Below are positions 9,703-52,256 of a stretch of DNA of 64,000 nt, one piece after another (the stretch's first letter is position 1; each line of letters begins with the position of its first letter). The translations under genes were made by a program, and so were the position numbers. The stretch spans positions 1 through 64,000 of the forward strand of contig JAUZSF010000021.1 of NCBI GenBank assembly GCA_030949705.1, in the 5' to 3' direction. The notes beneath the pieces are model-generated. The model was not told the origin of the DNA, searched no databases, and saw nothing but the letters and a program-made list of their open reading frames with translations. Origin of the DNA: Robiginitomaculum sp. GTDB taxonomy: Bacteria > Pseudomonadota > Alphaproteobacteria > Caulobacterales > Maricaulaceae.

Positions 9703-12700
9703 ATGGCATTGTTGCCGCAGCGATTGATCGCTGGCGTACCTCTTTGCTGGTGCTCTTTACCGGCTTGCTGGCCGGTGTTTTGTCCTATGCCAATCTGCCA
9801 AAAGAATCCGACCCAGACATTCCGATACCCTATATTTATGTGGGAGTGCCATTGGAAGGGGCCTCCCCCGAAGATGCCGAACGACTGGTGGTCCGGCCAC
9901 TGGAAACCGAGCTGCGTGCCCTGGAAGGGGTAAAAGAGCTGAACTGCGCCGCCCTGGTTGGCATCGGCATGTGTGTCATCGAGTTTGAGGTTAATTTTGA
10001 TCAGGACCAGGCCCTGATTGATGTGCGCGACAAGGTGGATAATGCCCGTCGCCGCTTCCCCGCCGAGGTCGACGAATGGACCGTGCGCGAATTTAACGCC
10101 AGCCTGCAACCGGTATTGGCCATCACGCTGTATGGCGAGGCCCCGGAACGTACGCTCTATGCCCTGGCCAAGGAATTGGAACGCGAATTGGAGGCCCAGC
10201 CGACCATTTTGAATGCCGATCTTTCGGGGGCGCGCGAAGAAGTGCTGGAGATCGAAATCGATCCGGCGCGCCTTGAGGGTTATGACATCACTTATGAGGA
10301 AATCCTGGCCGCCGTTTCGGGCAATAATACACTGATCACCGCGGGCAATCTGGATACTGGCTCAGGACGTTTCCAGATCAAAGTCCCGGGGTTGATCGAA
10401 AATGCCAGTGACCTTCTGGACCTGCCCATTCGCGCCGAGGGAGACCGGGTGATTCTGTTACGCGACGTCTCCAACATCAAGCGCACCTTTAAAAATGCCG
10501 ATAACTATGCCCGTTTTGACGGCAAGCCTGCCATTGCTTTGCAAGTGGTAAAACGGCTGGGCGCCAATTTGATCGAAACCACCCAAAGCGCGCGCCGCGT
10601 GACGGACCAGTTAAGCAAAGACTGGCCCCAAAGCGTACATATAGCCTACAGCCTGGATCAGTCCACATGGATCCGCAATTCCATGAACCAACTGATTGCT
10701 TCGGTCACTACGGCCATATTGCTGGTGATGATTTTGGTGGTCGGCGCCTTGGGGCTGCGCTCTGGCCTGTTGGTTGGCTTTGCCATTCCCGGCAGTTTCT
10801 TTTTGGCCTTTTTCCTGATTGGCCTGGCCGGGATGAGCATTAATTTCATGGTGCTTTTTGGCATGGTGCTCTCCGTCGGCATGCTGGTCGATGGGGCCAT
10901 TGTGATCGTTGAATATGCAGACCGCAAAATGGCCGAAGGACTGGACCGCGTAGAGGCCTATAAAATGGCGGGCCAGCGCATGTTCTGGCCGGTAGTGTCC
11001 TCCACGGCCACCACACTGGCCGCTTTCGTACCGTTTTTATTCTGGGACAGCATGGCCGGTAAATATATGAGTTTTTTACCCAAAACGCTCATTCTGGTAT
11101 TACTGGCCTCGCTTTCCATGGCCCTGTTGTTCTTGCCTGCCATCGGGTCCCTGATTGGCAAACGCCCCGAAGATGCCGATGATGCCATTGGCAAGGTCAG
11201 CGCCGGCGCCGGGGCGCCCACGGCCTTGCCCGGTTTTACCGGCATGTATGCCCGCCTGGTTGCACGGCTGGTCAAACGGCCCATCATGGTGTCCATGACC
11301 GCGCTGTTTATAGTGGTGAGTGTCTTCATGTGGTTTGGGGCCACACCGCACCGGTCCGAGTTTTTTCTGGCTACCGAGCCTGAACAGATTTTCGTCTATG
11401 TGCGCGCCAGAGGTAATTTGTCCCCCCGCGAACAGGACAGCCTTGGCAATATGGTCACGGACCGGATCAAGGACGTAGAAGGCATTGAGTCAATTTACAT
11501 GACAACCGGGGCAGGCAGCTCGGTTGGTGGCTCCAATTCTCCACCTCCCGAAGATACGGCCGTGACCCTGTTTATCGATTTTCTCCCTTTTGGCGAACGT
11601 CGCAATGGGCATGAAATCGTGGCCGATATTGCCAAACGGGTCGCCAATGTTCCCGGCGTCATTACGGAATTGCGTGAATTACAAAGAGGCCCACCGGTTG
11701 GCAAGGATATCCAGATCGAGTTGATGGGTACTGACTCTGTGGCACTGGACCGGGCAGCGCGATTGGTGCGGGCGCATTTTAACGAAATGGACAGTCTGCG
11801 CGATATCGAAGACACCCTGCCCTTGCCTGGCATCGAGTGGCAATTGGACGTGGACCGGGAACAGGCCGGGCGCTTCAAGGTGAATATTTCCAGTGTTGGC
11901 GCCGCGGTACAATTGCTGACCAATGGTATTCTGGTGGGCCGCTACCGGCCCGATAACTCAGATGAGGAACTGGATATCCGGGTGCGCTTTACCCCCGATG
12001 CCCGCGATATTGACCAGCTCGACCGCCTGCGCGTAACCACGCCGCTGGGACCAGTGCCGGTATCCAATTTTGTAACCCGCAAGGCCAGCCAGCGCGTGGA
12101 TAAAATTTCCCGCCGGGATGGCCGCCGGGTAATTGAAGTGCGTGCCAATGCCAAGGAAGGCTATGCCGCCAACCTACTGATTGAAGAACTAAAAGACTGG
12201 CTACCCAGCGCAGGCCTGCCCAAAAACGTCAGTGTGAATTTTCGCGGGGCCGATGAAGAAACCGCCAATGCCTCCAGCTTTTTCGCCGGCGCCATGGCGG
12301 CGGCGCTCTTTATGATGGCGGTGATCCTGTTGATGCAATTCAACAATTTCTGGCATGTGTTCCTGACCTTGCAGGCCGTGGTGTTGTCCATTACCGGCGT
12401 GTTGATCGGCATACAGCTGAATGCCCCGCTGGATTATATCAGCGTACTGATGGTGGGCACCGGCGTGGTGGCACTGGCCGGAATTGTGGTCAACAACAAT
12501 ATTGTGCTGATCGATACCTATCACCATATGCGCAATCTGGGCTATGAGCCCGATGAAGCGGTAGTCCGCACCGCGGCACAACGTCTGCGGCCAGTTTTGC
12601 TGACCACCATCACCACCATTTTGGGCCTGCTGCCCATGGTGTTCATGATCAATGCCAATTTTGTCAAAGGTGAAATTACCATTGGTGGCCCCTCTGCCGA

Positions 12701-12893
12701 ATGGTGGGTACCCTTGGCCGCCACGGTGGTCTGGGGGCTTAGCTTTGCCACCTTGTTGACCCTGATCCTGACCCCGGTTCTGTTGGGTGCCCCATCTCGG
12801 GTGCGGGCAAGTCTTGCCAATGTCCGGCGCTTTGTCGGCGCTATGGTTTCCCGGTTGATCGGCAAAGCAAAGCCGCATCACCCCGCCGAATAA
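9699..12893 (+). CDS. RND efflux transporter permease (AcrB/HAE1 family)
   Basis: A 1064-residue inner-membrane protein with the duplicated RND layout: one N-terminal helix, a large periplasmic loop, a six-helix bundle, a second loop and a second bundle. Recognisable segments are GMLVDGAIVIVEYADRK in the first bundle, carrying the Asp typical of the proton relay, and VVNNNIVLIDTYHHMRNLG plus RLRPVLLTTITTILGLLP in the second. It expels small molecules using the proton gradient; the substrate range cannot be read from sequence. Preceded by its adaptor and followed by a strong terminator. Confidence 0.95.
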   Translation: MNGIVAAAIDRWRTSLLVLFTGLLAGVLSYANLPKESDPDIPIPYIYVGVPLEGASPEDAERLVVRPLETELRALEGVKELNCAALVGIGMCVIEFEVNFDQDQALIDVRDKVDNARRRFPAEVDEWTVREFNASLQPVLAITLYGEAPERTLYALAKELERELEAQPTILNADLSGAREEVLEIEIDPARLEGYDITYEEILAAVSGNNTLITAGNLDTGSGRFQIKVPGLIENASDLLDLPIRAEGDRVILLRDVSNIKRTFKNADNYARFDGKPAIALQVVKRLGANLIETTQSARRVTDQLSKDWPQSVHIAYSLDQSTWIRNSMNQLIASVTTAILLVMILVVGALGLRSGLLVGFAIPGSFFLAFFLIGLAGMSINFMVLFGMVLSVGMLVDGAIVIVEYADRKMAEGLDRVEAYKMAGQRMFWPVVSSTATTLAAFVPFLFWDSMAGKYMSFLPKTLILVLLASLSMALLFLPAIGSLIGKRPEDADDAIGKVSAGAGAPTALPGFTGMYARLVARLVKRPIMVSMTALFIVVSVFMWFGATPHRSEFFLATEPEQIFVYVRARGNLSPREQDSLGNMVTDRIKDVEGIESIYMTTGAGSSVGGSNSPPPEDTAVTLFIDFLPFGERRNGHEIVADIAKRVANVPGVITELRELQRGPPVGKDIQIELMGTDSVALDRAARLVRAHFNEMDSLRDIEDTLPLPGIEWQLDVDREQAGRFKVNISSVGAAVQLLTNGILVGRYRPDNSDEELDIRVRFTPDARDIDQLDRLRVTTPLGPVPVSNFVTRKASQRVDKISRRDGRRVIEVRANAKEGYAANLLIEELKDWLPSAGLPKNVSVNFRGADEETANASSFFAGAMAAALFMMAVILLMQFNNFWHVFLTLQAVVLSITGVLIGIQLNAPLDYISVLMVGTGVVALAGIVVNNNIVLIDTYHHMRNLGYEPDEAVVRTAAQRLRPVLLTTITTILGLLPMVFMINANFVKGEITIGGPSAEWWVPLAATVVWGLSFATLLTLILTPVLLGAPSRVRASLANVRRFVGAMVSRLIGKAKPHHPAE

Positions 12894-12963
12894 TTACAGC
12901 ACGATTTTATCGCCAGAGCATGCGATACCCAACAATACCGCAGCCTAAATGACACCAGTATAG

Positions 12964-12990
12964 CCCCCGCCATCATGGCGGGGGTTTTTT
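12964..12990 (+). terminator. Rho-independent terminator of the RND operon
   Basis: CCCCCGCC-ATCAT-GGCGGGGG stem followed by six T, about 70 nt after the pump stop codon. Confidence 0.9.
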
Positions 12991-13139
12991 GGTTTTATCC
13001 CCGTGTTTGTTAGGGGCAATCAGGGGTAAACAAGGGACGTTTCAGGGTCATTTTTCTTCTCTTCAGGGGTATTTGAGGGGTAAGTGATGGACGGCTCAGG
13101 GGTAAGCCTTGCCCCTCTTTGACCCTTGGGGGCGTATCC

Positions 13140-13265
13140 GGGGGATTTCTCCCTCTCCCTGGGGAGAGGGCCGGGGTGAGGGGATGGTGCAGCAACGTCA
13201 GGGTTCTGTCCTTAAGCCTATGACCCCTCACCTTATTCCTCTCCCACCCGGGAGAGAAAAGAGAT
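13140..13265. repeat. Dispersed palindromic repeat (TCTCCC/GGGAGA type), second locus
   Basis: Contains CCCTCTCC-CTG-GGGAGAGGG followed by GGGGTGAGGGGATGGTGC, and then CCCCTCACCTTATTCCTCTCCC with GGGAGAG in the opposite order. It shares GCACCATCCCCTCACC (reverse strand) and GGGTTCTGTC with the locus at 4941-5050. Confidence 0.7.
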
Positions 13266-13351
13266 TGTCTCCATGCCGGTGCCACAGCTTAGGTTTGGGG
13301 GGATAGAAAAACCTTGTCCCACACCGGCGTGGATGGAGTATTATTCTAGCC

Positions 13352-13456
13352 ATCCTTCGAGGCTCACTTTTGGCTCACACCTCAGAGCCTGCCCCGGACT
13401 GGATCCGGGGATGAGGAGATTTATACAAAGATCTCGTCCTGAGGTGCCCTCAAGTC
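13352..13456. repeat. Degenerate copy of the CCTTCGAGG palindromic repeat
   Basis: Left arm ATCCTTCGAGGCTC, an inner CCTCAG...GGATGAGG part, and right arm CGTCCTGAGGTGCCCTCAAG. It is a less perfect relative of the repeats at 41898-41995 and 42319-42428 and includes the same CCCCGGA...TCCGGGG insert type seen in the latter. Confidence 0.65.
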
Positions 13457-13638
13457 GTGTGAACCATTATGATGTGGAGCGTGGCATGAGAGAAAATCAC
13501 TCAGTTTCAGGAACAGAACCACTGCAAAGCCCCCGTGTCTTTGCTCCCTGGAGGCGCCAGATCCAACGACGACACGCCCGCAGCATAATGGCCATACAAC
13601 CCAGGCTCCAAACTCATTCAGATGATTGATTTTGGACC

Positions 13639-13824
13639 CTAGAGTGGCCGTTTGAAATAAAACTGCAATTCGGCAGCTGGGGCAATGGTTGGGGCGCTAA
13701 CCAACTCCCACCCCTCAAGCCCGCGGCGGTTCAGCACCTCGGTGATATACTCTGCTTTAGTCGTAGATTTTGCAAAAACTGGTGGTTTAATGGTTTCGAC
13801 TTTATAGGTCCATTTGGTTTTCAT
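13639..13824 (-). CDS. DUF4177 domain protein
   Basis: A 61-residue protein: N-terminal KWTYKVETI strand, then LNRRGLEGWELVSAP, the hallmark of DUF4177, and a final beta strand ending in FYFKRPL. Function unknown; the family often sits beside small regulators. Its ATG overlaps the stop of the RHH gene by 4 nt, and it is the third gene of the SPFH operon. Confidence 0.8.
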   Translation of the reverse strand: MKTKWTYKVETIKPPVFAKSTTKAEYITEVLNRRGLEGWELVSAPTIAPAAELQFYFKRPL

Positions 13825-14018
13825 TTCTTCTGTTCCTCGGTCTCTATGACCTCTGGCGGGTGCTCGCGCAGACGCCCGGCGCGACGCAAAGCATCGCGCA
13901 GGACATATTCAATCTGCCCGTTCAAAGATCGCAATTCATCATCGGACCAACGCTTCATGGCGGTCAGAATGTCCTCATGAATGCGAAGCGGATAGGATTT
14001 TCTGACCTTTTGGGTCAT
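13821..14018 (-). CDS. Arc-type ribbon-helix-helix DNA-binding protein
   Basis: A 65-residue protein. Residues 3-45 form a ribbon-helix-helix: strand KSYPLRIHEDI, then two helices ending in SLNGQIEYVLRDALRRAGR, as in Arc-like regulators. The ATG at 14018 follows AGGAGG; the longer in-frame start at 14078 runs inside the SPFH gene and lacks a ribosome site. Middle gene of the SPFH operon, with an 8-nt gap upstream and a 4-nt overlap downstream. It is the obvious candidate to bind the tandem TGATATCA boxes in front of the operon. Confidence 0.8.
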   Translation of the reverse strand: MTQKVRKSYPLRIHEDILTAMKRWSDDELRSLNGQIEYVLRDALRRAGRLREHPPEVIETEEQKK

Positions 14019-45057: not shown

Positions 45058-46209
45058 ATGCTCCGATCGCGTATTTTTTATATCGGTGCCGTCTTGCTCT
45101 TGCTTTGCCAGGGTGGTCTGGCGCAGGCTGTGAGCGCTGACCATCCTTCGGATTTTGCAACCAATTCAGCCGACAATGACCCGGCAAATGTTGGCACAGT
45201 GCCTCCAATCCCGCCTTTGCAAAGCACCACCACCTCCCCACCACCACCCCACACTCCTATTCCAGATCTGGTGCTGGCCGCCGGCCCCTATGCCCGCTTT
45301 TTGAATATTATTGACCACGCCGCCAAAGTGCCGCCGCAATCCGCCGAAGATCTGGAACATCTGATGGGGGATCTGGCCGGTTTTGATGGGCCTAAATTAT
45401 CGCACTCATTTCGAGCCTATGCCATTTTACAGGCCATGCAGACCCCTGCCTTTTCCTCTGGAATACAAAGATGGGGGCGGCAATATGATCGCCAGGGCCT
45501 GATTGCAAACTTGCGGGCCAATCCGGCCTATGTGGAACAAATGCCCGGCATTGGACAAGCCCGCGAACAGGTCTTGCGTCAGATCAGAAAAGACGGCCAG
45601 GCCGCCTTGCTGGCTGGCGGCATATACAAAGACCTCGCCTATTCCCTTCAGCGCCTTAAATGGGCAAGCAAGGTACGTGGAGGCAAAGCACTGAGGCTGG
45701 CGGCCCTGCGCAACGCCCCTTATGCACCGCAAACCATTTCGAGCGATATTTTGCAACCACTGTTGCGCGCCTATTCATTACAACCGCCGCTGCTCAGCCC
45801 GCTGATGGCGACCAATGCCATTCCTTCCAGAAAACCGGCAAAAAGCAGCCTGTTAAAAAAGCTGGTGAGCAATATCGGCCCGGATGCGGCTTTGGCTTCC
45901 AGCCCACCACTGGCCATTCCAACGCTTAGCGCGGCCCCGGCCTATGCAGGAGAGTTGCAAAACATTCTGGCCAATGCTGCCTTGCAGATTTTGGACCCAT
46001 CCACCCCCTATCCCGGCGCATTATCTTCGCGCGGCCTGTCTGACACGATGGCAGAATGCGTTGACTGGGCCCGCTTGCATCTGAACCAGTGTGTAGCGGC
46101 CACGCGATTTGTCTATGAGGACAGTTTTTGCATTGCCCGCCACCAGCTCAAGGATTCCGGACGCTGTATTGCCGAATTTATTGACGGCCATCACCAAGCC
46201 ACCCATTAA
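45058..46209 (+). CDS. Exported protein of unknown function
   Basis: A 383-residue protein with a signal peptide (residues 1-23, LLLLCQGGLAQA), a Pro/Ser/Thr-rich spacer (residues 50-70, SPPPPHTPIP), then a helical domain. Four cysteines near the C terminus (MAECVDWARLHLNQCVAATRF, SFCIARHQLKDSGRCIAEF) are spaced for two disulfides, supporting a periplasmic location. AAAGG lies before the ATG. No family recognised. Confidence 0.65.
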   Translation: MLRSRIFYIGAVLLLLCQGGLAQAVSADHPSDFATNSADNDPANVGTVPPIPPLQSTTTSPPPPHTPIPDLVLAAGPYARFLNIIDHAAKVPPQSAEDLEHLMGDLAGFDGPKLSHSFRAYAILQAMQTPAFSSGIQRWGRQYDRQGLIANLRANPAYVEQMPGIGQAREQVLRQIRKDGQAALLAGGIYKDLAYSLQRLKWASKVRGGKALRLAALRNAPYAPQTISSDILQPLLRAYSLQPPLLSPLMATNAIPSRKPAKSSLLKKLVSNIGPDAALASSPPLAIPTLSAAPAYAGELQNILANAALQILDPSTPYPGALSSRGLSDTMAECVDWARLHLNQCVAATRFVYEDSFCIARHQLKDSGRCIAEFIDGHHQATH

Positions 46210-47805: not shown

Positions 47806-49029
47806 ATGCTTGACTGGGCCTCTCATCACAAGGCCCGGACAATGCCCCTGACCAACGCCATCCAACCGGATGCATCACAACAGAATAATACCGGGAAAAC
47901 CCGCGCCATATTGGCGCGTCGCCTTGCCGATATTGTTTGTCTGCCGTCCAGCCGGATCACCCCGGTGGAGCGGCATATGTCGGGCGATCTGCTGGTGGGC
48001 ATTTTGGCACAAAGCCCGCTGGATTTGCGCAAACGCTGTGCCCGCCGGGTGGCTTCCTTGATTGACGCCGCCCCCGGATTGTTACGTTTTCTCATCCATG
48101 ATGAAATCGAAGTCGCCAGACAAGTGCTGGAAGACAGCGAAGCGCTGAGCGATTATCTACTGGTCGAGGCGGCCCGTACCACTACGCTGGATCACCGTTT
48201 GATCATTGCCCAGCGTCGAGGCTTGAACGAACTGGTCTGCGAAGCCCTGCTGGCCCCGGGCGAACCCGAGGTAACCGCCAGAGTCCTCAAAAACCGCAGT
48301 GCACAACTTTCGCAAAACGGGCTGTCCAGAGCTCTGGAACTCAGCCGCGAATACCCCACACTGTGTGCAATCTTGCTCAAGCGCGATGAGTTGCGCCCGG
48401 CCCAGGGCATGACCCTGTTCTGGTGGGCAGGCCCAAAAGAGCGGGCACAAGTTTTGAATCGCTTTGCCGTTGGGCGTGACATTATGCAGGACATTGCCGG
48501 GGATATATTCTCGATGATGGCTGAAGAAGACTGGCAGGATCTGCTGGTACGCAAAGCCATGCAGTTTATTGAACGCCGTCAGCGCAACCGCGCCGCCATC
48601 GACAAGAGTCCCTATAGCAGTCTGGAAAATGCCGTGGATACGGCACTGGAAACCGGCATGGACGCCACGCTGGCCGAAGAGATTTCTTACTTAAGCGGCA
48701 TCAAGCCTGTCACCGGTGCCCGCATCCTTAGCGATCATGGCGGTGAACCCATCGCGGTTTTATGCAAGGCCACAGGTTTGAAACGTGATTATCTGCTGAA
48801 ACTCTGGCGGGCGCTCAAACGCCCGACCGGCGCACCAGACACCCCCGACCCGGCCCTGACACGTACCATTCAGTGTTTTGACAGCCTGTCGTCCAACAAG
48901 GCACAAACCGTGCTGCGCTATTGGAACTGGGCATTTAACGCAGAAACACACACCACCGGCCTGGCCGAGGCCAGTCTCGCTGTCGACCATGAGATCACCA
49001 CCCCCAACAGTGCCGCTGCCTTCGTCTAA
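47806..49029 (+). CDS. DUF2336 domain protein, second copy
   Basis: A 407-residue helical protein of the DUF2336 family. Visible are paired helices such as LDLRKRCARRVASLIDAAPGL, DHRLIIAQRRGLNELVCEAL and PEVTARVLKNRSAQLSQNGL. Distantly similar in layout to the one at 21101. Either ATG 47806 or ATG 47842 may be the start; neither has a strong ribosome site. Ends 16 nt before the likely promoter of the FMN riboswitch. Confidence 0.75.
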   Translation: MLDWASHHKARTMPLTNAIQPDASQQNNTGKTRAILARRLADIVCLPSSRITPVERHMSGDLLVGILAQSPLDLRKRCARRVASLIDAAPGLLRFLIHDEIEVARQVLEDSEALSDYLLVEAARTTTLDHRLIIAQRRGLNELVCEALLAPGEPEVTARVLKNRSAQLSQNGLSRALELSREYPTLCAILLKRDELRPAQGMTLFWWAGPKERAQVLNRFAVGRDIMQDIAGDIFSMMAEEDWQDLLVRKAMQFIERRQRNRAAIDKSPYSSLENAVDTALETGMDATLAEEISYLSGIKPVTGARILSDHGGEPIAVLCKATGLKRDYLLKLWRALKRPTGAPDTPDPALTRTIQCFDSLSSNKAQTVLRYWNWAFNAETHTTGLAEASLAVDHEITTPNSAAAFV

Positions 49030-49044
49030 GTCCTGAAAATAGTA

Positions 49045-49072
49045 TTGACCCCGGCCCGGTGCTTGCTAGGCT
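49045..49072 (+). promoter_or_regulatory. Possible promoter of the FMN-riboswitch transcript
   Basis: TTGACC and TAGGCT separated by 16 bases, placed so that transcription would begin about 20 bases before the riboswitch. Confidence 0.4.
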
Positions 49073-49097
49073 TGGCATGTGGATTGTCCACAACAAT

Positions 49098-49262
49098 GGT
49101 CTTCGGGGCGGGGTGAAAGTCCCCACCGGCGGTAATGCAGGTCTGTTTTCACAAACCTGACGAGCCCGCGAGCCGATCATGGTCCCGCTTTGGCGGGGCA
49201 AGATTAGCAGATTCCGGTGTGAGCCCGGAGCCGACGGTTATAGTCCGGATGGTAGAAGATCG
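49098..49262 (+). ncRNA. FMN riboswitch (RFN element)
   Basis: Full-length FMN riboswitch. The diagnostic strings are all present in order: GGGGTGAAAGTCCCCACC with GGCGGTAATG, AGCCCGCGAGC, CAGATTCCGGTGTGAGCCCGG, AGCCGACGGTTATAGTCCGG and ATGGTAGAAGA. The outer P1 stem pairs GGTCTTC (49098-49104) with GAAGATC (49255-49261). It binds FMN and, by analogy, reduces expression of the downstream gene when FMN is plentiful. It leads straight into the TonB receptor gene. Confidence 0.97.
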
Positions 49263-49296
49263 AACAGACGAGCGTGGCTCGTACGGGTTCAGAAAA

Positions 49297-49320
49297 CACA
49301 CCAGTATTGGTGTGCGTTTT
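49297..49320 (+). terminator. Likely riboswitch-controlled terminator
   Basis: CACACCA-GTAT-TGGTGTG stem followed by CGTTTT, lying between the riboswitch and the receptor start. The T run is short, so control may also occur at translation. Confidence 0.55.
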
Positions 49321-49387
49321 GGCGTGTGCGTAGGCGGTTTTCTGTGAAACGCCCCGAAGCTGTTGCCTTGGCTTTGGGACTGAATTT

Positions 49388-51616
49388 ATGAGCAACACAT
49401 TTACCGACAAGACAACCATAAGCGCGTTTGTACGCTTGCTTTCCTGCACCGGCATTTTGGCGATGCCCTCTATCGCCCTGACCAAGACACAGGATAAGCC
49501 GGCCAAAGATGATCGGCTGGACCAGATCATCGTGACTGCCACGCGGCGGGCCGAAAACCTGCAAAGCGTTCCCATTTCCATCTCCGCCTTTTCCGCGGCA
49601 CAATTAGAGGCCTATCAGGCCCCGGCCCTGGAAGATTTAAGCGATCATGTTGCCAATATGTGGATGCCCGCCTCCACCGAGGCCGGCCAGAGCTTTATCA
49701 CCATGCGCGGCATTAATGCCGGCATCACACGCAGTTCGGGCCGTTCGGTTGGCGTTTATATTGACGGGGTGTTTGTCTCGGCCGATACCGCCATGAATAT
49801 CGCCCTGTTTGATGTGGCCCGCGTTGAGGTGCTCAAGGGCCCCCAGGGCACGCTCTTTGGCCGCGATACCATCGGTGGTGCGATCAACATCGCCACCAGA
49901 AAACCAGCCCCCCTGCCCGAGGGCAAAGTGCAGGTCGAGGCCGGCAGTTATGGCTTGCGTCAAATCCTGGCCAGTGCCAGCACCCCCTTGGTCAAAGACG
50001 TGCTTTTTCTTCGTCTGGCCGCCATGAAACGCAATAAGGGCGGCTATATCAAAAATGCCTTTACCGGACGCAAGGCCGGGGCCGAGGATCATTTCTTTTA
50101 TGATGCACAGCTTTATTACACGCCCAATGCCCGCCTGGACGCACGTCTGGTTTTCAGTGCGCAAAAGATAGATGATCGCCCCAACGCGCTGGGCGAAGCC
50201 GTTACCAATATCGGTTCGGACACCATCCCCTACACCATCAGTCTTGATCAGGATGAGTTTCAAAAACAAACCGTCAAACGCGCTTCCCTGAATGCCAATT
50301 ACGAATTTGCCAGCGGCCACACGCTGAGCTGGACCAGCGGCTGGTCCCATGTGAATGATTTTTACATTCAGGACGGGGACCGGTTGCCACAATCCATAAC
50401 CGTGGCGCAATTTGATGGTGGTGCGCGGGAAGTGTCGCAGGAGGTCCGCCTGACCTCCCCATCCTCGGATCGCTTTGATTATCTGTTCGGCCTCTATTTT
50501 CTGGATGCCCGGCGCGATTTTAACCCGACGTTTCCGGTCATGGGCAGCGCCTTTTTGGAGCAGGTGCTGGGCATCCCTCCTCAATTCCACCCCGCCGACA
50601 CACTGGACGGACAACAGGTGCGTACCAATACCACCAGCAAGGCCGCCTTTACCCACGCCAATTTCCACCTGACCGACACGCTGACCGCCTATGGCGGCTT
50701 GCGGTTTACCAATGATCATAAACGCGTCGATTATCGCAGCTTTGGCGAAGTGTTTGGTGTGTTTGGCCTGCTACCTTTGCAGGCAAAATCACAGGTGCGT
50801 AACCATCCGCTGTCGTGGGTGGGGGGCCTGCGTTATCAGCTCACCGATACGATCATGACCTATGGCAGTATCAGCCGCGGTTATCGCAGTGCCGCGATCA
50901 AGGACAATTTTGTCTCTGCCGCCGACATTAATGCGCCCAGCGGATTCTTTACCCGACCGGAATTTCTGACCAATTATGAAACCGGATTTAAGGCGAGCCT
51001 TTTTGGCAATCGGCTGCAGGTCAATGCCGCCGCCTTCACCATGCAATATACCGATATTCAGGTTACGGTATCGCAAGAGCCGTTTTTATTTTTGCGCAGC
51101 CTGACCAATGCCGCCAAGGCCCACATAAACGGTTTTGAGGCCGACCTGGCAGCCCGGCTTTCCCCGCGCCTGAAAATCACCGCGGCGGCAGGCTATGTGC
51201 ATTCGCGCTATGACGATTTTATACCGCGCCCCGGGGTGGACCTGGCCGGCACCAGTTTTGGCACCGCGCCGGTCTGGACATTCAGCACCGCCGCCGATTA
51301 CCGCCTTCCCCTTGCCAATGGCAGTGCACTGAACGCGCATCTGGATTATGCCAACCGCACCGCTCCCAAAACCACGCCGCCGGGGGAGCTGGCCTTTGTG
51401 GGCGATTATGGGGTGATAAATGGTGCCCTGGGGTATGAAGCCCCGGGTGGGCGCTGGCGCGCAAAGCTCTGGGTCAAGAACCTGGGCAATGTAAACCTGC
51501 CGATGGTGAACAAACTCTGGGGATCCGGCCTTGGACCACTGATCGAAAACGAAACCGTGCGCTATGAACCACCCCGTCGTTTTGGGGTTTCTTTCACCCT
51601 CAATTACAGCAGATGA
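49388..51616 (+). CDS. TonB-dependent outer-membrane receptor under FMN riboswitch control
   Basis: A 742-residue receptor: signal peptide, then TonB box DQIIVTA (residues 45-51), plug domain (SVPISISAFSAAQLEAYQ, SFITMRGINAG, VGVYIDGVFVS, VEVLKGPQGTLFGRDTIGGAINIATRKP) and a 22-strand-type barrel ending in FGVSFTLNYSR. TonB receptors pull scarce substrates across the outer membrane using energy from the inner membrane. The FMN riboswitch 126 nt upstream of the ATG points to riboflavin, FMN or a related flavin as the substrate. No inner-membrane transporter is next to it. Substrate is inferred from regulation. Confidence 0.88.
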   Translation: MSNTFTDKTTISAFVRLLSCTGILAMPSIALTKTQDKPAKDDRLDQIIVTATRRAENLQSVPISISAFSAAQLEAYQAPALEDLSDHVANMWMPASTEAGQSFITMRGINAGITRSSGRSVGVYIDGVFVSADTAMNIALFDVARVEVLKGPQGTLFGRDTIGGAINIATRKPAPLPEGKVQVEAGSYGLRQILASASTPLVKDVLFLRLAAMKRNKGGYIKNAFTGRKAGAEDHFFYDAQLYYTPNARLDARLVFSAQKIDDRPNALGEAVTNIGSDTIPYTISLDQDEFQKQTVKRASLNANYEFASGHTLSWTSGWSHVNDFYIQDGDRLPQSITVAQFDGGAREVSQEVRLTSPSSDRFDYLFGLYFLDARRDFNPTFPVMGSAFLEQVLGIPPQFHPADTLDGQQVRTNTTSKAAFTHANFHLTDTLTAYGGLRFTNDHKRVDYRSFGEVFGVFGLLPLQAKSQVRNHPLSWVGGLRYQLTDTIMTYGSISRGYRSAAIKDNFVSAADINAPSGFFTRPEFLTNYETGFKASLFGNRLQVNAAAFTMQYTDIQVTVSQEPFLFLRSLTNAAKAHINGFEADLAARLSPRLKITAAAGYVHSRYDDFIPRPGVDLAGTSFGTAPVWTFSTAADYRLPLANGSALNAHLDYANRTAPKTTPPGELAFVGDYGVINGALGYEAPGGRWRAKLWVKNLGNVNLPMVNKLWGSGLGPLIENETVRYEPPRRFGVSFTLNYSR

Positions 51617-51764: not shown

Positions 51765-52256
51765 ATGGGGTACGCTCTATCCTTGACGGTGGCAATGGCC
51801 GTTCTTTGGTTGATGCTGTCGGGCCATTATGACAGCACTTTACTGCTGAGCCTGGGTGCCGGTTCCGCCATTTTTGCCAGTGCCCTTGCCTGGCGTCTGC
51901 ATATCTTGGATGGCGAGACATCCCCCTATCACAAACTCTGGCGCTTTTTTGTGTATTGGCCCTGGCTGTTATGGGAAGTGATCAAGGCCAACATCATTGT
52001 CATTCGCACCATCTTGCAACCGGACATGGTGCTGACCCCCCGCATGGTGCGGGTCAAAACCATGCCCAAGACCGATATGGGCCGGGCGCTATTTGCCAAT
52101 TCCATCACCCTGACCCCCGGCACCGTCAGTGTGGATCTGGATGCGGATGAAGTGATTGTCCATGCGGTACTCAAAGAGCTAACCGGCAAAGAAGGCTTTG
52201 CCGACATGGCGGCCCGGTGCGCCCGGGCATGCGGCGAGAAGGATCCGGTGAAATGA
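51765..52256 (+). CDS. mnhE: Mrp antiporter subunit E
   Basis: A 163-residue membrane protein with two or three N-terminal membrane segments (VAMAVLWLMLSGHYDSTLLL, FVYWPWLLWEVIKANIIVIR) and a soluble C-terminal part containing ITLTPGTVSVDLDADEVIVHAL-type sequence, the MnhE signature. Part of the multi-subunit Na+/H+ antiporter in the inner membrane. First gene of a nine-gene operon; its ATG follows GGGGAGA. Confidence 0.92.
   Translation: MGYALSLTVAMAVLWLMLSGHYDSTLLLSLGAGSAIFASALAWRLHILDGETSPYHKLWRFFVYWPWLLWEVIKANIIVIRTILQPDMVLTPRMVRVKTMPKTDMGRALFANSITLTPGTVSVDLDADEVIVHAVLKELTGKEGFADMAARCARACGEKDPVK

Follow-up and report, generated by a model that had tools for sequence, protein, structure and literature searches.

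A TonB-dependent receptor behind an FMN riboswitch in Robiginitomaculum, a candidate outer-membrane importer of flavin

The stretch of Robiginitomaculum sp. DNA analysed here (64,000 nucleotides, called the window below) carries an FMN riboswitch directly before the gene for a TonB-dependent receptor, and the sole FMN riboswitch found in this lineage has that receptor as its target. We consider it likely that the receptor uses TonB to import riboflavin or a different flavin (FMN, FAD) across the outer membrane and that high cellular FMN turns its production off. We infer flavin transport from the regulation of the gene and from its distribution across related genomes.

The riboswitch aptamer (RF00050) was located by cmscan at 49095-49264 on the forward strand and aligned with eight orthologous leaders. 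Its score of 100.5 bits (E 4e-22; gathering score 66.2) spans model positions 1-138 of 138 with P1 included, so the complete riboswitch described in the first-pass annotation is indeed present. It is the one Rfam match above threshold in the window and the one RF00050 match in the whole genome (2.83 Mb in 29 contigs, 91.9% complete). The next gene begins 123 bases past the aptamer end, with no gene inside the gap, and is the 742-residue receptor that had been named as the direct target (49388-51616, forward strand). Its open reading frame has a Plug domain (PF07715, E 8.8e-18) and a TonB barrel (PF00593, E 4.2e-38), which place it among the TonB-dependent receptors. A DUF2336 gene (47806-49029) lies upstream of the riboswitch, and Mnh-type antiporter genes (MNHE, MnhB) start at 51765, 148 bases after the receptor; both assignments come from Pfam.

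The pair is conserved within the genus. Riboswitches were surveyed in 61 genomes, the window's own and 60 relatives, 18 of them of the window genome's genus; an FMN riboswitch was found in 17, ten of which belong to the genus. In nine of these ten it precedes an orthologous receptor, with 58-90% identity and a start codon (chosen by hand) 113-146 bases beyond the aptamer end, and in the tenth, G014, it precedes a rib operon of ribD, ribE, ribBA and ribH. The genus genomes that have the receptor are exactly the nine that have the riboswitch before it, at E <=1e-60 as well as at E <=1e-100. A DUF2336-type gene stands upstream in eight of the nine loci (recognised by Pfam in three, in the others by size, place and N-terminal letters), and an MnhE-type gene stands downstream in all seven loci whose contigs are long enough (by Pfam for the window, by eye for the others). 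Outside the genus, the first matching gene behind the riboswitch is RibD in six of the seven riboswitch-bearing relatives from the order, the seventh being G054.

The leader between aptamer and receptor offers a candidate mechanism of control. A likely terminator had been proposed 3' of the aptamer; scanning 48950-49500 for intrinsic terminators gave no site resembling one, and a hairpin visible by eye at around 49297-49314 has a run of just four T behind it. A more plausible expression platform is a hairpin at 49353-49378 (forward strand, identified by folding, -14.6 kcal/mol in the window), a putative translational off-state that masks the G-rich stretch just 5' of the start codon. Leader alignment, complement search and folding point to an element, CGCCCCGAAG (49350-49359, forward strand), that could pair alternatively with the ribosome-binding region or with the 5' strand of the aptamer. 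Its candidate anti-sequestor partner there, CTTCGGGGCG (49101-49110, forward strand), is a 10-nt Watson-Crick complement of it, a length reached by 1 of 500 dinucleotide shuffles. With FMN scarce, the element would pair with the aptamer 5' strand and the ribosome site would stay open; with FMN bound, the aptamer would close, the element would fold onto the ribosome site and translation would stop. A platform stem running from CAGA to TCTG with variable hairpins inside (49265-49344, forward strand; read by eye in the leader alignment) is paired in both modelled folds of the window leader.

Relatives share much of this layout. The sequence CGCCCCGAAG is identical in five of the nine receptor leaders, and CCCCGAA is common to them in the interval between aptamer and start codon, with CCCCAAA instead in one of the nine. 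When short leader excerpts (43-49 bases) are folded alone, the element pairs in all nine with the G-rich run that precedes the start codon. The longest complementary runs between element and aptamer are, in order of leaders, 10, 6, 10, 10, 10, 9, 10, 8 and 7, reached by 1, 337, 2, 6, 0, 3, 0, 20 and 159 of 500 shuffles, so that in two of the nine (337 and 159) the complement does not rise above shuffled sequence. In the weakest leader, that of G004, the two sides, read by eye, show matching differences (GGTTTT-C-GGGGCG against CGCCCC-AAAACC). The platform stem likewise varies at its ends by eye, with CAGAC/GTCTG in L027 and L031, CAGGC/GCCTG in L023 and CAGAA/TTCTG in L032, and was not found by such reading in L035; the DNA alignment of the leader hairpins across relatives is of poor quality. 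Modelled openness of the ribosome site agrees with the proposed switch in five of nine leaders, and the two alternative folds differ by at most 8.4 kcal/mol in all nine, modelled energies that neither prove nor exclude a switch hiding the ribosome site upon FMN binding. On the whole, FMN probably represses receptor production through masking of the ribosome site.

Most of the genus appears to have lost genes of riboflavin synthesis. RibH (PF00885) and RibB (PF00926) are absent together from 16 of the 18 genus genomes, the window's own (G000) included, and both are present in G010, G014 and all four family controls. RibF (PF01687) is found in 15 of the 18, among them G000 and all 11 good-quality genomes. 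Because RibH and RibB are missing in most genomes and RibF is kept, the genus is predicted to need flavin from outside; G000, at 91.9% completeness, is a candidate riboflavin auxotroph by its genome (RibH and RibB not found, riboflavin kinase kept).

The distribution of the receptor was compared with that of RibH. Among 137 family genomes, 107 have RibH, and the receptor (E <=1e-100) occurs in 17, all of them among the 30 without RibH and none among the 107 with it. Fisher's test of receptor against RibH absence gives p = 6e-14 for the family, a value that ignores kinship and reflects in effect few evolutionary events; within genera, again with kinship ignored, the association is weak by numbers (0.47 in the first, 0.055 in the second, 0.015 pooled). 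Eight of the 17 receptor-bearing genomes come from a second genus, represented by 14 genomes, 11 of them without RibH; the receptor is found in 8 of these 11 and in none of the three with RibH. Thirteen of the 30 genomes without RibH are also without the receptor, namely seven of this genus, three of the second and three of other genera (75-89% complete), and these require another flavin route or are incomplete. Neither gene was found in G003, G006, G009, G012, G013, G015 and G016 of this genus, in G148, G150 and G159 of the second genus, or in G075, G092 and G104 of the others; G003 is 96% complete. A midpoint-rooted RibF tree of 15 genus genomes (G006, G008 and G009 had no RibF match and stand outside it) splits into groups of ten and five. 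The receptor is present in eight of the ten, the exceptions being G010, where RibH is retained, and G003, where neither gene was found; it is absent from the group of five, one member of which, G014, keeps RibH.

Receptors of the second genus are 49-58% identical to that of the window (seven aligned) and form one clade with those of the first, with support of 100/100, in the receptor tree that had been suggested as a check (its outgroup branches are long). Their loci lie elsewhere in the genome, beside fpg- and ubiE-like or trigger-factor-like and DedA-like genes by eye. No FMN riboswitch was found near them: L092-L098, L100 and L084 gave none at the gathering score, and seven of these loci (L098 and L084 excluded) gave none at E <=5. 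The first-pass annotation had named homologs with a different substrate and no conserved riboswitch as evidence against its proposal; this holds in part, in that the second-genus orthologs lack the riboswitch, but they too are confined to genomes without RibH. Since second-genus receptors go without the riboswitch and are yet confined to such genomes, the receptor is tied more widely to missing RibH than to the riboswitch. In one second-genus locus (L084:6822-9019, G027) the ortholog is spread over two overlapping frames with one TAA inside the match, through a broken gene or a sequencing error, and both pieces were excluded from the receptor alignment.

Wider searches reached more distant proteins. 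An ortholog search of a 385-genome class sample at E 1e-100 added two genomes, with 360 bits at best, against at least 994 bits for complete orthologs with a similar profile. Plasmid relatives of the window receptor share 29-32% identity with it among the best 10 of 856 records. Around more distant receptors, 12 loci at 11 places (two of the loci overlap) and two plasmid loci showed no FMN riboswitch.

In the same class sample, FMN riboswitches matched in 70 of 385 genomes at 71 sites. The first recognised gene, assigned by reference match or Pfam, at the 70 sites other than the window's own is RibH at 39, RibBA or RibB at 17, RibD at five, RibE at three, EamA at three, and a PF04973 (PnuC-like) gene, a TonB receptor and a glutamine synthetase at one each; two of the 70, the glutamine synthetase site and one RibH site, score below the Rfam cut-off. 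Within this sample, the search for downstream TonB receptors that had been recommended yields one case in 70, in G275, a genome from another alphaproteobacterial family. Here an FMN riboswitch (L181 9871-10030, 110 bits) is followed by a hairpin with seven T (10137-10161), an 806-residue TonB receptor with Plug and barrel (10246-12666) and, nine bases past it, an MFS transporter gene (12676-13923), in what is apparently one operon, with the MFS protein as a candidate inner-membrane flavin carrier. Its receptor belongs to another branch of the superfamily, because its best BLAST E against the window receptor is 0.001; a plasmid search with it returned 44 weak records. An FMN riboswitch is present in all four genomes of the G275 family, and two of the others precede EamA genes and one (G541) precedes RibH.

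The hint to a flavin substrate that the first-pass annotation had drawn from the riboswitch is strengthened by the nine-genome arrangement, by RibH and RibB missing in most of the genus with RibF kept, by the receptor never having been found together with RibH in the 137 family genomes and by the switch, receptor and MFS gene of G275. Taken more broadly, we think it probable that outer-membrane flavin receptors exist and have been drawn on two or more occasions from separate branches of the TonB receptors. One alphaproteobacterial group would combine the receptor with lost riboflavin synthesis and have placed it under FMN-riboswitch control, and in another family the riboswitch would govern a two-membrane uptake operon of TonB receptor and MFS carrier.

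Most members of the TonB receptor family have no substrate assigned, and in the present case the substrate is told by regulation and cross-genome pattern, not by sequence and fold. The structure model (pTM 0.74, mean pLDDT 69.3, weak loops) returned TonB-dependent receptors in all 50 best Foldseek rows, with FyuA and Fiu on top at 16-18% identity. A stretch like DQIIVTA or DEIIVTA near the N terminus is conserved in the receptor alignment and may be a TonB box. None of the 25 best NCBIfam profiles, of which those for siderophore, haem and other receptors are nearest, reaches its cut-off.

Passage of riboflavin across the outer membrane is usually ascribed to porins. Passive, porin-dependent entry is reported for E. 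coli in the accessible part of PMC12319065, and because riboflavin can pass porins, it is not obvious that active import is required. One special case of flavin import, which we regard as possible but rather doubtful, is that the cargo of the receptor is a larger flavin or a molecule carrying one (FAD, protein-bound flavin or a conjugate) and not free riboflavin. At about 785 Da, FAD lies above the usual porin limit, which would explain the payoff of an active gate, and long segments between the barrel strands are conserved in receptors of the two genera; the sequence, however, gives nothing to separate riboflavin from FMN or FAD. Whichever flavin is imported would then cross the inner membrane through a carrier and be phosphorylated by RibF. 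Searches by phmmer with four candidates found no such carrier in the window or in loci of 3.6-14 kb from 16 relatives.

It is improbable that the receptor imports some other substrate, such as a ferric siderophore, with FMN only reporting on redox or iron status. The nearest profile is that of siderophore receptors (TIGR01783, 139.2 bits), the two top Foldseek matches named above lean the same way, and iron and riboflavin regulation are linked, riboflavin repressing tonB1 in Vibrio cholerae according to the portions available of PMC5816637 and PMC6041382. That profile's cut-off is 223.5 bits, however, and no siderophore model reaches its own among the 25 best; nearly all other FMN sites in the class sample precede flavin synthesis or transporter genes; and iron uptake would not predict a receptor found only where RibH is missing. 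That the riboswitch is a no longer relevant relic of a lost rib operon, left before the receptor by chance, we hold to be very improbable: the switch of G014 shows that the genus uses it before a rib operon too, but the aptamers score 92-109 bits in all nine receptor-linked genomes, element and hairpin are conserved between aptamer and start codon, and the three nearest of 17 aptamers to each receptor aptamer are receptor aptamers (76-92%, against 62-68% to that of the G014 rib operon), a point that counts for little because the aptamer of G014 is far from every other one (58-71%).

Flavin import as proposed here has parallels in riboswitch-controlled receptors for other vitamins. In E. coli a cobalamin riboswitch precedes the TonB-dependent receptor BtuB and acts on translation, as would be the case here (excerpted text of PMC11162775); the vitamin is another one, and the window receptor reaches 53.8 bits with the BtuB profile TIGR01779, whose cut-off is 599.7. 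A TPP riboswitch likewise stands over the TonB-dependent vitamin receptor OMthi (BT2390) of Bacteroides thetaiotaomicron, whose deletion raises the thiamine need of a synthesis mutant and is without defect as a single deletion (PMC5613172, in the part consulted). OMthi differs in its substrate, thiamine, and in belonging to Bacteroidota, and was likened to the window receptor by description. PqqU (YncD), a TonB-dependent receptor for the redox cofactor PQQ, is a structural match (9c4o, TM 0.67 and 0.75) and differs in sequence, with 16% identity and 37.8 bits against a cut-off of 1200.

RibN, RibM, RibZ, RibV, RibXY, ImpX, RibU, RfuABCD and PnuX are cytoplasmic-membrane systems. These flavin uptake genes were found via FMN riboswitches, as described in sections of two surveys (PMC4418817, PMC3766115) in whose main texts the words 'TonB' and 'outer membrane' do not occur. 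A search of the open-access literature, with most subscription literature outside its scope, found no outer-membrane flavin receptor. The principle of a riboswitch-controlled vitamin receptor is known for B12 and thiamine, and the vitamin and receptor described here are, as far as could be seen, new. If the proposal is true, competition for trace amounts of vitamin B2 takes place in some bacteria through a regulated, energy-driven gate, metagenomes could be searched for the receptor gene as a marker of B2 dependence, and flavin would be an added substrate for the TonB receptor family.

Two further observations concern neighbouring matters. In G265, a class genome of 2.0 Mb, an FMN riboswitch precedes a gene for a 292-residue PF04973 (PnuC-like) transporter (L161 1924-2799, reverse strand), an arrangement that recalls PnuX. 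The window also encodes a 383-residue protein at 45058-46209 with no Pfam or NCBIfam match, and several relatives have, by eye, open reading frames of similar size at the equivalent place.
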